Below the pieces are notes generated by a model. The model saw only the letters and a program-made list of their open reading frames with translations. It was not told the origin of the DNA and made no database searches. A program made the translations under genes and the position numbers. DNA of 64,000 bases from Utricularia gibba (taxonomy: Eukaryota; Streptophyta; Magnoliopsida; Lamiales; Lentibulariaceae): positions 808,501 through 872,500 of the forward strand of contig NEEC01000014.1 in NCBI GenBank assembly GCA_002189035.1. The letters run 5' to 3'. Shown here one piece after another: positions 1,802 to 48,652 of the stretch. How positions within the stretch are numbered: position 1 is the first letter of the stretch; the number at the start of each line of letters is the position of its first letter.

Positions 1802-4800
1802 TATGTTTTAATAATCTTTTACTTGTTTGTTCTTCATGCTGTATCTGCTTAAATTCGCACCTTTTATTTTCAGTTTTACCTTTTTGAAAAAAATCATTCA
1901 TGTTTCTTTCATGGGGATGTGTCTGTTTTTGGTGTTTGAAACGCTTTTTTAAGTTTTCGTGTTGGATCAGATGGGATTGAGTGAGTACTGTGATGTATGT
2001 TTTGTTCAAAGATAGTTTTTTTTAACCGGCGGTAGCCCACAAAATAAGTTATATATAGTTAAGAGCGTTTTTTTTAATTTATCTAATGTTTTGATGCCAT
2101 AGCTTGCATCTTCTTGCTTTTTAAGGTCTTTTAGTTGTAGGATGCCTCTTGGTCCTAGACATCCCCTATTTTCTTTTTAATAATTGGAATGTGTTTTGAT
2201 TCAACAGCACGTTTATACACCTACCCACCATTTTCTCATCCAGCAGTTAACTGATCGAAATGCCTGCTCTTCTACTCGCTGTGCACTAGACGTTTAGGTA
2301 TACCCATGTGCCTTCATAATCCCAAATAAGCTCAACAATGTTTATTTGATTCATGGGAGGCCAAGATCAAGGATGGGAGCTCGCTGATAACACTTCTAAT
2401 TCTGTAGAGGTGTTTGAATAGTAACTCGCCTTACATATGACCACTTAAAAATGGAAACATCATAGCACCCTTTCCTTCTATCATGTGATTTATTGCCCTC
2501 GTCACTTAGTTATGCCACACTCTTCCTAAACTCCTTGGAGAAGGTCTCAAACTGATCAGCACAATGATGTAGGCCATGAAAACCTTTCTGCTCACGTTTG
2601 ATTCAGTTTTAATTTGATCTGCTTGGTCAATTGCCTACATCAAAAACAACTTTCGTATTGGCAATCTCCTGTGGGGTCAAAATGTCAAAACTTGCAACTG
2701 ACCGAGATATTTGACTCCTGCAGGCACATGAGTTTCCAATGCATGAAAGTACACAGGAATCTTACAAGGTGTAACATTATGCTCAAGAATAAACACTTGG
2801 TTTTGTTTCAAGCAAATTTAACTTTCAGTGGTGACTATGCCATTACAATGAATCCCAGCTTTTCTCCCACATCACCGTTTAGCGCATAAGTTATGTCTAC
2901 TTTTTGGGTTATGTATAGAGGCCCCAGTGAGTAACTTCAAATATTTCATCATTGTATTCAAAGCAGTTCAAGTGTCTTTGGATGAGTATGGAATGTCTTT
3001 TGTAGATATTAGTTTGTTTTTTCACTATTTCTGTAAGTGTTAACACTTGATGATGTACAAATGATGTGGTCCTTCAGAAATAAAGATATCAGTCTTGACT
3101 AATGTTTTTGCTGAATAAATTATGATCTTCTTTTCCATGTTTGATTTTTTTTTTCTTTTTTATTCTTGTGCGTTGTTAAACTGGTGGGCAGTTGGTTGCT
3201 TCTGATTATGATTTTTTTTCTAATTTATTCGAGTGGTTTGCACATGCATCTCAAATATATGTCTCAACCTTTTAAAGCTTAGAGTCTTACATCGGTTAGG
3301 AAAGAAAAAATACTTCGTTGAAAGGTGGATTGCTAGGATTATTCATCCTTATCGTATTATATTTGGTTTAACGGCCTTGGTAACAAAGTTTTCCTTTTCT
3401 TCAGATGAAAATGATGGAACGTGAGATTTTTTTCAAGAGGTGTTGACTTAATACTCTGTTCTAGAGATGGTCTTCAAGATACCTTTGATATATGCTACAA
3501 CCAGATATTTGCTTGGTTCTAGATTAGTGTTACATTTTAGATCATTGTACATTTTTACCCAGGTGTATTAAGAAGTTCGGAATCCTGTGTAGCGCATGAA
3601 TCCTTGATTGTTTATATCCTGTTAATATTGTTCATTTTCTTTTGAAAGTGCTGTTCCCCGGCTCTCAACTGACATCAATTGGTTTCTTTCTTGCATTAGA
3701 GCTCGGCTTGTCAGTTCCAAGGTGATAGATGCTATTAGCTGACTTGAACTTGGAAAGTGGGAGTTACATCTGTCCATCCCAACATTCTACTTTTGTGCCG
3801 TACTCTTTAGAGTAGACCTGAAGGGAAATTCATTGAATCCTCATTGTCATCATCTTCAGGATTGTATACACTGTGGTGAAGCATATTTCATTTGTTCTAA
3901 TAATCATGATGTCACTAACACTCATCTGTTGCGTTTTCCATTTTGAAGAATCAAGAGTTTGTTTGGGATATCCCTGTTGTAGTTGTTCTTGCATATTTCC
4001 CTGTGTGGCACCATTTTCAGTTAACCATGAAGCTGTTTTATCCTGCATTTTTTACACTTCCCCGAAACGTGTTTTAAACTTGCGAAATATGGAGATGAAT
4101 AAATACCATGAAGTTATTACGAAATAAACAACTGTGTTGACATTTTCTAAGTGTATGTTATGCACAACTTTTTGTCAAATAAATTTTATTTCTTTTTAAA
4201 AAAAATTAGAAGTAACATTGATTGTAGAATAATAGTTCATTTTTCTTCTCTTTTTTTTTTTAAATCTCATTCTACTATAATCTTTTTCTTTGAAAAATAA
4301 GAAGTTACATTTGATCTACTTCTCATTCTACTTCTTTTTAATTAATTCTCATTCTAAAAAAAATAGAATATATTATAAAAAAATCATCCAGAACAAGTTC
4401 TAAACTCTGATACAAAAAGCATTAGTGTTTCCAAACATCGATGCCATTACAGGGAAAGTCAACCTACTACTAGGAGAAATAGAGCTTGATTGGTTCGTTA
4501 GTTGTAGCTTGCTACGAAGAGAAAGCATGACTTATCAACAAATTTTATCTTCGACGCCTCAGAGAAGACAATGGCTCCTCCGTCGTCGGCGGTAGGGTTC
4601 AAGTTTTCCCAGTGCTGTGCGGATATGCTTGTTGACGCATAAGTTGACTAGATTATTTGGGTCAATACAGCGGTCTTGAAACGGAACCTCCGCTGTAGCT
4701 GACGCACCGGCTCCGATGGGCACTCAAAGCATATGATGATTCTCCGAGGTCGCCGGTAGCTTCGATCTAGTTATGGCGCGCTGACCAATTCGCAACCTGG

Positions 4801-42375: not shown

Positions 42376-45300
42376 ATGGCGCCTCAACTTCCGCTCGATA
42401 CCGAAGGCCTATGCATGGTCTGCAAGGTCAAGCCGCCGGAGGATGCAACTCTCCGATGCGTCTCCTGTCTTACTCCCTGGCACGTTCTTTGCCTCGCTGT
42501 CGTGCCGGAGACCATGGGTTCCGCTCTCAAGTTTGAGTGTCCTGACTGCACCGGAGATGGGATGGATGGAGTGCCGGCACTTGTCGACTCCGGGAAGAAT
42601 GATTTGCTACTCAGAATACGGGAGATCGAGGCGGATACGTTGCTATCGGAGAAGGAAAAGGCGGTGAAAAGGCAGGAGGTTATGAGTGGGAAAATGGTGG
42701 CTGAAGAGGGAGGGGAAGAGAAGGGAGAAGGGGAAAATGGGGTTGATATTTTGAGCGTGCTTGGCGAAAGCTTCAAGTGTTCCTACTGCATGGAGCTCCC
42801 TGAAAGACCCGTTACGGTCGGTGATAATGCTACTCCTATTTCTTGTTCTTTTTTGTTTCTTATATGTGAATGCGTTAGATCATTGTTTCTTTTTTGTTTT
42901 TCGAATCTCAGACACCTTGCGGGCACAACTTTTGCTTGAAATGCTTCGAGAAGTGGGTAAATCAAGGAAAACAAACTTGTGTCAAATGCCGAAGCACCAT
43001 TCCCCGTAAAATGGCTATTCAGCCACATATTAACCCAACGCTTGTGGCGGCTATACGTATGGCAAAAGCTTCAAGATCACAAACCTCTAAAGGCCCATCA
43101 GTTGCATACCGCTTTTTGCATGATCAAGATCGTCCTGATAAAGCATTTACTTCTGAAAGAGCGAAGAAGTCTGGAATGGCTAACGCTTCTAGTGGGAGAG
43201 TATTTGTAACTGTTCCAAGAGACCATTTTGGGCCTATACCAGCTGAGAATGACCCTGAAAGAAATCAGGGAGTTTTGGTTGGAGAGACATGGAGTCTTCG
43301 GATGGAATGCCGTCAATGGGGGATACATTATCCGCCTATAGCTGGCATTGCTGGAAAGGCAAGTTATGGTGCTCAGTCCATAGTGGTTTCTGGAGGTTAT
43401 CAGGATGACGAAGATCATGGTGAATGGTTAATTTACACAGGATCGTAAGCACTCATATGCTGTTTCATAAGTTATTTATTTTGCTTTGTGTGGCTTCAAG
43501 CGAAGCTGCATTAATTCAAATGCCTTTATATGGCTTCCTAACTATCTCCATTCTCTTTTTATCACAGTGGTGGAAGAGATTTGAGTGGAAATAAACGTAC
43601 GAACAAGGACCAGGCATTTGATCAGTGCTTTAAAGCAGAAAATGAGGCTCTTAGATTTAGCTGCAGAAAAGGATACCCTGTTCGACTAGTGAGGTAGAGA
43701 CTGTATCATATTTTCCTTCTTTCAGTGTGCTTAATAATGCAAACAAATATTAAACTGTTAGCCACTTCGGAGCCTACTGGTATAGTATTCCATGAACGAT
43801 AAATTACTAATAACCTCCTATTATGTTGCATTTACCGAAACGGTTGCTATGAAAATGGTAAGTGGTGGCATCCGCCATTTCCGATACTTAATCTGTAGTC
43901 TACATACTAGATTGTCTACTGTCATTTTAGTATTGTTGAATTTATTGCTGTTGAAGTTGTCTTGAGACTTAGCGCTAGTGTTCATCTCATAAATGCATTG
44001 AATTGATGCAATTAGAGCTGGTTTTATTTATGTAAGAAGTCATGTCTAATATTAGATTCAGCGTATAAATAGTGTATTAATGCCTAGCTAATCATCAATG
44101 ACTTCGTGGAGGAAATACTTTTTTTTATATCCTCGGTGCCCTAGTGCATTTATATTAACTGCATGTTTATCATAAATTCCAGATCAGAGAAAGACAAGCG
44201 CTCGCCATATGCACCAGAAAAGGGTTACCGCTATGATGGGGTCTACCGTGTAGAGAAATGCTGGAGAAATGTAGGAAAGCAGGTGCATGTCTTTGCCATA
44301 TCTCAAATTTTTATGTGCCGTGATCTCTTTTGGTCCATTGTGTCATTCATGTTTTGTTCAATAGGGGTTTAAGGTTTGCAGATATTTGCTTGTGCGCTGT
44401 GACAATGAGCCTGCTCCATGGACAACGTCGGTGCTTCTCTGTCTTTGAAGTGATTTTTGTGACCATAAATCTACTTTGTCATTGATTTCAATCCCTTGTG
44501 TCAGTGATGAGCATGGTGATCGACCTAGAAAGCTGCCCACCATTCCAGAGCTTAAACAGGCGGTTGATGTATTTGATAGGAAAGAGAGCCCACACTGGGA
44601 TTACGATGTAAGTGATCATTGACCTTTGTTTTTATTTGGTGGTATGTTGACCCTATTGTGTGCACTAAGCTTACCGATAGCGCTTAACTTGAGCTGGAAT
44701 TTCTGGTGTAATTGATGCATTTCCATCTCGATTTTTAGGAGGGAGAAAGCTGTTGGAAATGGAAGAAGCCACCACCCCTCAGTGAAGCAAAAGTAATCAC
44801 TGTTGATGCTGATGGGATGCAGGTTACGAGAAAAGTTGTTAGGAAAGCACAGATCACATCAGTGAAGCAAAAACTCTTGAAAGGTTTGGTCTATCTGCAG
44901 TTTAATTTTCCAGGAACGAGCAGCCTAACTGTGTTTTCGAGTTTCCTTGGACATAAACCCAGGTCTCTGCTGCCTTATTTGCCAAAAGGTGATGAATCTT
45001 CCCCTAACAACACCATGTGCCCATAACTTCTGTAAACCTTGCCTTGAGGGGGCTTTCGCTGGGCAAACATTTGAAAAGGAGAGGATCTGTGAAAATGGCC
45101 GCAAACTTCGCTCTCAGAAAAATGTATTCAACTGCCCCAGATGTTCAGCTGATATAGCGGAGTTTCTGAAAAACCCGCAGGTAGATACATACCTTCCTAT
45201 GTCGTACATGTGGTTGTAATGCTGAAGCCATCGTCTCAACTGAACTGTGCAGGTGAACCGCGAACTGATGGAGCTAATAGATAAACTGCAATCAGAGGCT

Positions 45301-45489
45301 GATAAAGATGAGAGCAATGCTGATAATTCAACTGTCGATCCCCAGAGCGACGATGACAGCACTAGTCTGAAGAGAAAAAACACTAGTCCTTCAAGCCCTT
45401 CACCTGAGGAAGGGCAGGGGGAAGAAAATGTGAAGAAAAGCAAAGTTGAATCGGAGGAAGCTCCCGAAATGATGCCCATTCAGACATAG
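42376..45489 (+). CDS. ORTHRUS/VIM E3 ubiquitin ligase (PHD-RING-SRA-RING)
   Basis: Nine exons: 42376-42816, 42912-43444, 43568-43693, 44183-44282, 44365-44426, 44505-44607, 44739-44883, 44963-45180 and 45253-45489, about 654 residues, near the 645 of Arabidopsis VIM1/ORTH2. The protein is the plant counterpart of UHRF1: it binds methylated cytosine and keeps CG methylation with MET1 in the nucleus. Domains in order: PHD finger (CMVCKVKPPEDATLRCVSC), RING (FKCSYCMELPERPVTTPCGH), SRA/YDG (VFVTVPRDHFGPIPAENDPE, GIHYPPIAGIAG, DEDHGEWLIYTGSGG, GYRYDGVYRVEKCWRN, VCRYLLVRCDNEP), second RING (CLICQKVMNLPLTTPCAHNF) and an acidic Ser-rich tail. The start shown is MAPQLPLDTEGLCMVCK, the usual family start; an in-frame ATG at 42244 would add 44 basic residues. 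The exon 7/8 junction (LLK|GLCCLIC) is less sure than the others. Confidence 0.92.
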
Positions 45490-45941
45490 AACCCCGGGTG
45501 CTGCTGCGGCAGCTAAAACCACAGCACCCGCCCCTGGTGCAAAGAGACCAGGTGAACCAAAATGTTTCCCCAAAGCGCTGCTGCCAATGATGCGGTACCA
45601 AGAGCAGCAATTGGTGCAGATTTAACGCAAGCCGATTACTTCTGCTTTAGGTATCAGTGATGCATGCTTCATGGCCTGCGTTTCATCCTGCTTTCTGTTT
45701 AGATGGACACAGATACCATGGAAAGCTGATTTTGCATTGTGGGGAAGATTATCTATTGATAACTGCTTGCTGTTATGATACATGTTTGTGAATCAAGAAA
45801 AAGAAAGGCCAAAGGCTATGTTCTTATTACATAGCTTGATCCCACCCGTGTTATTACATAACATACATTTCTGGGACATCTGGTCAGAGGTTCACCTCAG
45901 CTCCTGTGAAGTATGAACCATAAACTTGCCTTCTCGCTTTC

Positions 45942-48652
45942 CTATTGAGATTCAGCAATGTATCCATGATCCAGCAGATCAGAGAGAAGGCTTCGCATTT
46001 TGTCAACAGATATGGGTTTAAGCATAAACCCAGCCATTCCGATCCTTGTGCAGCTATCTTTCAGCGTTCTGTCATTGTTTCCGGTGATGGCTACAATGGC
46101 AGGCCTCTCGGTGCGTCCCGAAAACTTCTCACGTATCTTTCGAGCAACCTCGAAGCCTTCACAGGTGGGCGTGCTTACAGTTACAAACACCACCTTGTGC
46201 TCACGGGTGATGGCCTTGAAACACTCTTCTGCAGAAGAAACCGCAAATACATCACACCCCAAGTGTGCCAGGAGGCCCTTGGTTATCATTCGACTAACAC
46301 TGCATCATGAACACCAGCAATGAAAAGAAGGTGAGGATGCTATTGGGGAGGTTTGAATAATGGCTCAAGAAAGATAGATTTTCCGCTCACCTATTGTCAT
46401 CCATTAAAACAACTTTGATGGAGAAACTTGGGTTGATTGGATTCCCCAGACCTTGCTGTGAGAATGGAGCCATCGGCTGGTTCGAGCGACCAGCAATTCC
46501 AAGTTTGACGACAAAAATAGCTGTAGAACCTTGGCCAGAACCTTCGCTTTGAATCCAAATATTGCCTTCCATAAGGTTCACAAACCTGACCTTGCAAACC
46601 CATATCATAATATGCAAGCGGTGAAGACGCGGAATGACCGTGAATTAACACCTCACCTCTTGCAAATGGCAAGGCCAAGTCCACTACCGCCATTGGTTTT
46701 CGAGGCAAGAGGCTTGTTCTGAACGAACTTCATGAACAGCTTAGGAATATCCTGAGGATCAACTCCTGAACCGGTATCTTTAACCTGAAACACAAAAAAA
46801 ATGGCTTTTTTCAGAATATTAACTCGGTTAACCCAGAAATGTTAGTGACAAGAGACTGCACCTCTACACGTAAATAGAAGTGATTTTCACTTTGCTTAGG
46901 GCAAAATTCTGGAGACTGAAGATCTCTCAGGGAGTCAGGTTTAGCAACTATGGCAGACACTGAAATTCCTCCCTCTTTTGTGAATTTCACAGCATTCCCA
47001 ACAACATTTAGGAAGACTTGCATTAGCCTCTTTTCATCACCAATGGCATATTCAGGAACATCTGGGGCATTCAGCGTCACGTACAACTTCTTCACAGATG
47101 CAATAGGCTTTATTAGGTTGAGTACCTAAAACAAGAAGCGGACATCTTATGTACACCTTGCACCAATGAAGTCTCTCTTCATTAATTTTGATGGTTATTA
47201 TGTTACCTCCATGAGGAGTGAATGCAGGCTAAAAGTGCTCATCTCAAGCTGGAGACTACCATCTTCAAGCCTTGAAAGATCCAATACATCATTAATAAGT
47301 GTCGCTAGAAGGTTGCTGCTTTTCAGGATTGTTTCCACCATCAATCGCTGCTCTGGAGTCAGTTCAGTTTCTTGCAATAAGGAAGAGAGAGCAATAATTG
47401 CATGCATTGGTGTTCTCATTTCATGATTCATCACAGCCAAGAAATCATTCCGTGCACGAACAGCCATCTCAGCTTCCCGTCTTGCAAGGTCCAAAGCAAC
47501 ATTCTGCTCCATTAAAAGATCTCTTGCCCTCATTGACTCTTCCAGAATTGCAGCATGGGAGAGGGCAACGGCAACCTGATACGCAAAATCAAGCGCACAT
47601 CTTACAGCATACGCAATACCAGTACTGGGAAGAAAATTGGAACTTTCTTAAAAAATAGCCCTTTCCATTTCTCGAAAAGAATTAAGGAAACCAAAAAATG
47701 TCAACTTTCAAGAGAAGAATATACAAAAAAAAAAAAAAAAAACCCTAACCTGATCTGCCACAACCTCAACAAGCTCCAACTCATGGGTGTGCCACTGCCT
47801 CGCACTATCCGAGGGGAGCATTAAAACCATGAGAGCATATCTTCTAGTAGACAATTCAGGCCAATCATGGATTTCAAAATTAGAAAGATGAAGAAGAGGA
47901 ACACGCACAGCAACTACTTCACCAAGCATGTACTTTCCAGCGGACCGGAACCGTGCAACAGGGGAGTTGGGCGAGATTTTGACTGCATGATTTGTGTTGA
48001 AGACACGATTGATCTCAGGAAGTTGTATGGGCACAGTAAACCCAACAGGGTTCTGGTGGCGAAGTGTATAAGAGAGTTGGAGCTCTAGTCCTGTCCGTGT
48101 GGGCATCCACAGCGAGCACTCTTCCAAGCCCAAGGTTCTCCCAAGTTCGACAAGTGTAGTCTTCAGTATAGTGTGCCGATCAAGAGTACTCCTGATTTCA
48201 TGTGTCAGCATCCTCACATGTCTACCAGTTTCCTCTTGAGTACGAATCAAACCCATTTCTCTATCTAGCTCAGCAGCCTTATTCTTCAAAAACAGCTCCC
48301 TCGTCTTCACACTCAACAGATCAGGAATGATATGCACTAACATAAGTGCAGTTGCACAGGACACAACAGCTGTTGATGTTTTGGCCATGGTCATGACAAT
48401 GGCCACTGTCCTAGAATGCATGCTATACGTCCACAAACTGATCAGATGAGTGGCGCCACACAATACAATGAACGCACCAAACTGCACAAGAACCCATCTA
48501 TATGGAAATACTGCAGATTTCTTAACAAAGTATATCAGCTCCAAGGGAATTGAGAAGTAAGCCAGTGCAATGAAAAAATCTGAGATATACTGATACTTCA
48601 CCAGCAACTCATCCCCTGGCCATGGCGACTCAATGCAGTTACAGAGTTCCAT
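45942..48652 (-). CDS. ETR1: Ethylene receptor, ETR1 type (subfamily I)
   Basis: Six coding exons: 47750-48652, 47207-47575, 46862-47125, 46657-46784, 46391-46585 and 45942-46299, giving 738 residues, the same length as Arabidopsis ETR1. It is an ER-membrane dimeric receptor that binds ethylene through copper and represses the response via CTR1. Seen: N-terminal Cys pair (MELCNCIE) for the disulfide dimer, three membrane helices with the copper-site LCGATHLI, a GAF domain, and a full histidine kinase: H box [11 protein letters not shown] box [10 protein letters not shown]1 DTGSGV, G2 GGSGLGLA. The receiver domain keeps the acidic pocket (VVLMDDN) and Lys (MLKPIS), but where ETR1 has the phospho-acceptor Asp in FMDVCMPG this gene reads FVTVSTPT, so that Asp is a Thr (codon 46179-46181). 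Subfamily I is shown by the complete kinase motifs. Confidence 0.96.
47725..47742. repeat. Poly-A tract (18 bases) in ETR1 intron
   Basis: Run of 18 A on the + strand just inside the first intron of the ETR1 coding region; on the coding strand it is a T-run close after the GTTAGGG donor. Simple homopolymer. Confidence 0.85.

Follow-up and report, generated by a model that had tools for sequence, protein, structure and literature searches.

An ETR1 ethylene receptor of Utricularia gibba with threonine at the position of the putative phospho-acceptor aspartate of its receiver

It is disputed whether the His-Asp relay of the ethylene receptor ETR1 has any physiological role, and a receptor whose own receiver lacks the aspartate of this relay bears on the matter. 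Such a case was found in Utricularia gibba, on contig NEEC01000014.1, in the window considered here (the whole analysed stretch of 64,000 nucleotides, to which all positions refer unless stated otherwise). It is the natural counterpart of the laboratory D659 mutant that has been used to test the importance of the phosphate relay. The following features were determined.

45942 to 48652, minus strand: coding region of ETR1, a subfamily-I ethylene receptor (six exons, 738 aa, GT-AG introns, Pfam domains)
47750 to 48652, minus strand: exon 1, ethylene-binding transmembrane sensor and GAF domain (Cys65, His69, Asp25 and Cys4/Cys6 present)
47207 to 47575, minus strand: exon 2, end of GAF, dimerisation and phospho-His domain (DHp) with H box NHEMRTP (DHp 86% identical to that of ERS1, PDB 4MT8)
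46862 to 47125, minus strand: exon 3, kinase catalytic (CA) domain with N box VVGNAVKF (CA domain 67% identical to ETR1, PDB 4PL9)
46657 to 46784, minus strand: exon 4, G1 (DTGSG), F and G2 (GGSGLGLAI) boxes (gene model and kinase alignment)
46391 to 46585, minus strand: exon 5, end of kinase, linker and receiver beta-1 with the acidic pair MDDN (gene model, 1DCF alignment)
45942 to 46299, minus strand: exon 6, remaining receiver domain (single copy in the genome)
46149 to 46187, minus strand: end of beta-3 and gamma loop, 13 residues, in Arabidopsis F-M-D-V-C-M-P-G-V-E-N-Y-Q (1DCF alignment)
46179 to 46181, minus strand: codon ACT for Thr660, at the site of the putative Arabidopsis phospho-acceptor Asp659 (gene model, receiver alignments)

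The gene is a single-copy ETR1 orthologue. Joined, its six coding exons give 738 codons and a stop, open throughout, and all five introns begin with GT and end with AG. In the protein, ETR1_N, GAF, HisKA, HATPase_c and Response_reg each score above the Pfam cut-off, and the closest solved structures are those of the Arabidopsis ETR1 catalytic domain (4PL9), the ERS1 DHp domain (4MT8) and the ETR1 receiver (1DCF). The N-terminal three-helix sensor contains both copper ligands, Cys65 and His69 (CGATH, residues 65-69), and the H, N, G1, F and G2 boxes of a subfamily-I histidine kinase are all conserved. With copper ligands and kinase boxes thus retained, ethylene binding and kinase activity would be expected. 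A C-terminal receiver is likewise present, matching PF00072 with 49-53 bits and 1DCF with an E-value of 4.9e-40 (phmmer). Length, domain order, kinase boxes, receiver Lys, Ser/Thr and acidic pair are thus shared with Arabidopsis ETR1.

The difference lies in the receiver. The 18-residue stretch around Thr660 occupies positions 46199-46146 on the minus strand, and in the alignment to 1DCF Thr660 pairs with Asp659 with no gap nearby. The initial annotation, which had reported a Thr codon at this point together with intact H, N, G1 and G2 boxes, the acidic DDN and the receiver Lys (MLKP), was correct in residue, coordinates and motifs. It had also named a second exon 6 with an intact receiver as a finding that would speak against its reading; in a DNA search of the plant's own genome (assembly of 100.1 Mb, 516 contigs), exon 6 matched only itself. 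Compared to Arabidopsis, the gamma loop shows further in-frame differences, namely M658V, Cys661 to Ser (D+2), M662T and G664T, and Glu617 of the acidic pair is Asp. The remaining active-site residues are retained, with D-D at 616/617, T at 692 and K at 714, while the Asp at the end of beta-3 that marks a canonical phospho-accepting receiver is absent. A pseudo-receiver has been defined as a receiver by domain model without a key phosphotransfer residue (PMC12632262), and the ETR1 receiver of U. gibba is exactly this. In carrying the signature of the receiver fold with the Asp replaced, it resembles plant pseudo-response regulators and bacterial pseudo-receivers. From the clock PRRs, which combine Glu with CCT domains, it is set apart by its place in a hybrid histidine kinase and by its Thr, with the four remaining residues of the active site still present.

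A comparison with about 25 receivers from the U. gibba genome showed that Asp is kept in type-A and type-B response regulators as well as in histidine kinases of the cytokinin-receptor type (FMDIQMPEMDG) and the AHK1-like type. There are four exceptions, all with Glu: three clock-PRR-like receivers (ILTEVDLP and VLTEVDLP) and one type-B-like receiver. ETR1 alone has Thr at the phospho-acceptor site. Since Asp is retained apart from these exceptions, its loss is specific to this gene and creates the pseudo-receiver. Altogether, a pseudo-receiver within an otherwise ordinary ETR1 is real and specific. In the open-access literature, neither another Asp-less ETR1 nor any report of the U. gibba gene was found.

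Two observations were made alongside in this set of proteins. The type-B-like receiver exon with Glu for the phospho-acceptor Asp (G000:C255:1088600-1089200) reads LVLSEVHMPDMNG. Furthermore, two nearly identical AHK1-like histidine-kinase genes are separated by about 20 kb and inverted relative to each other (G000:C317:1948828-1951000 and 1970700-1972712).

How severe the loss of the Asp would be has to be judged against the data for Arabidopsis. The statement of the initial annotation that Asp659 is the phospho-acceptor there goes too far: the residue is a putative acceptor, the receiver, which has been classed as atypical, did not react to Mg/BeF3 in NMR experiments, and D659A leaves growth recovery and nutation unimpaired (PMC4972365). 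Core ethylene signalling still works with D659A/E or after removal of the receiver, and ethylene repression likewise survives this removal (PMC4972365). Other work assumes a relay through Asp659 (PMC13012798, PMC3166298); a 2026 review describes it as running from DHp via the receiver to the AHPs (PMC13012798). The exchanges D659A/E alter the affinity for AHP1: the Kd, 1.4 uM in the wild type, rises to 15.4 uM when D659A is paired with H79A, and to 3.6 uM for D659A with AHP1-H79E (PMC3166298). In view of the NMR, D659A and receiver-removal data, the loss of the Asp is less drastic than it appears, and since Asp659 was already suspected to be dispensable, the surprise is modest. That the Arabidopsis receiver, too, fails to take BeF3/Mg (PMC4972365) is a point of similarity between the two proteins.

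Based on these considerations, ETR1 of U. gibba is probably a working ethylene receptor with intact sensor and kinase, whose receiver would serve as a docking and structural module independent of phosphorylation. It would most likely still bind ethylene and repress the pathway via CTR1 like any subfamily-I receptor. With the exchange of Asp659 for Thr, the receiver has become a pseudo-receiver, which may act, unphosphorylated, as a structural surface to which CTR1, HPt proteins or partner receptors dock. For phosphate from the kinase His, if it is passed on at all, the way out would be in trans, with a subfamily-II receiver as one possible target. The gene structure, the residues, the single copy, the retained fold signature and the presence of the downstream families are observed, whereas protein activity, ethylene binding, docking and any transfer in trans are predicted. 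The initial annotation had suggested that His kinase activity may be kept but that the receptor cannot relay to its own receiver. The first part agrees with the intact boxes, and transfer in cis from His to Asp659 is excluded by the sequence, but the exclusion covers the canonical site only.

The downstream parts were searched for in the same genome. Four HPt genes keep the His in HQxKGSS; they were found with an Arabidopsis AHP2 protein query. The Pfam HPt model gave no match in the genome, which can be explained by the division of plant HPt genes into small exons. EIN3-type, EDR1/CTR1-type and RTE1-type genes are present as well, so that parts of both the phosphorelay and the CTR1 branch remain. 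Among viral contigs, no relatives of ETR1 were found.

With the ETR1 protein as query, the whole-genome search returned three further ethylene receptors, all assigned to subfamily II on the basis of a diverged kinase and a long first exon. A second receptor of subfamily I (ETR1/ERS1 type) was not found in this search, in which gaps in the assembly are possible, and accordingly no ERS1 was detected. Two of the three receptors (L066 and L067, on C4 and C413) have receivers in which Asp (VVLLDLQLP, ILLVDLQLA), Ser and Lys are kept. Their second acidic residue in beta-1 is Ala or Gly (DA/DG, not DE/DD), which would make metal binding doubtful.

The third, subfamily-II-like receptor (ORF 4360..2375, minus strand, in G000:C4:3394000-3399500) deserves separate mention. 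It has FIVLCGMNNFLSFW in place of the FIVLCGMTHFLNFW of the others, with Asn replacing the copper ligand His69; no receiver was found for it, and no kinase domain by Pfam. Either insensitivity to ethylene or decay of this copy would be conceivable.

This set of receptors resembles the situation in monocots, where subfamily I comprises kinases without receivers, subfamily II provides the receivers, and transfer in trans has been predicted (PMC3611092). Like OsERS1 and OsERS2, U. gibba ETR1 has an active-looking kinase without an Asp acceptor in cis, next to receiver-bearing subfamily-II receptors; unlike these, which have no receiver (PMC3611092, PMC4579252), it keeps the domain without the Asp. 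We tentatively consider that the only detected subfamily-I receptor of this eudicot has kept its kinase beside a receiver unable to take phosphate, and has thereby reached the monocot division independently, by point change and not by loss of a domain. It is possible, but rather unlikely, that the roles are in fact divided as predicted for monocots and that phosphate from the ETR1 kinase passes to the two Asp-bearing subfamily-II receivers within hetero-oligomers. For growth recovery in Arabidopsis, the receiver may come from ETR1, ETR2 or EIN4 (PMC3611092), and the Asp, Ser and Lys of both receivers and the HQxKGSS of the four HPt genes would suit such a route. Against it stands the doubtful metal binding of both receivers, whose second acidic residue is replaced by Ala or Gly; in the cited work, too, transfer in trans is a prediction. 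This possibility also bears on the suggestion of the initial annotation that the phosphorelay is separated from CTR1 signalling. Transfer in cis to the canonical site is indeed excluded, but with Asp-bearing subfamily-II receivers, response regulators and four HPt genes present, transfer in trans is possible, and the loss of the cis acceptor alone therefore does not isolate the kinase from the relay.

A second alternative would be that the receiver is under relaxed constraint and in early decay, with Thr as a chance step of its drift and the protein being of ERS1 type in function. The identity falls from 86% in DHp (vs ERS1) via 67% in CA to 50% in the receiver, the lowest value to Arabidopsis among the cytosolic domains; this fits a weaker constraint on the receiver, in the preferred reading too, although the references differ by domain, so that the series is no formal test of relaxation. 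The loss of receivers in monocot subfamily I (PMC3611092) and the third receptor of U. gibba, which lacks any receiver, point in the same direction. However, an identity of 50% may be ordinary receiver divergence for an asterid ETR1 of this fast-evolving lineage. Moreover, neither a stop nor an indel interrupts the gene, its core residues are retained, the ancestral length of 738 aa is preserved, and the PF00072 score of 53 bits is practically that of the Arabidopsis receiver (54 bits). This score, together with the retained acidic pair, Thr/Ser692 and Lys714, suggests a folded receiver and not debris, and we regard decay as doubtful. A clustered hypermutation of the gamma loop was also considered and rejected (permutation p ~0.99), since a receiver with an overall identity of 50% is expected to contain a stretch of such divergence. 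The changes are notable for the residue that they affect, and not for lying close together.

That the missing Asp codon is an artefact of sequencing or assembly is very improbable: even though the assembly is long-read, the change from GAY to ACT requires two substitutions, which rules out a single-base error, the neighbouring residues also differ in frame, so that more than one base would have to be miscalled, the remaining gene is clean, and the other two frames of the stretch give stops or unrelated residues, no frame shift yielding Asp.

From a plant that lives with a natural Asp-less ETR1 as its only detected subfamily-I receptor, it would follow that the relay in cis is dispensable there. 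Such a plant would also provide a clean background for asking whether the kinase is active in trans or the receiver is a docking module only.

As a minor observation on the surroundings of the gene, the open reading frames at 42376-45490 on the plus strand, read by eye, suggest a VIM/ORTHRUS-type PHD-RING-SRA protein. This neighbour is convergent with ETR1, at a distance of about 450 bases.
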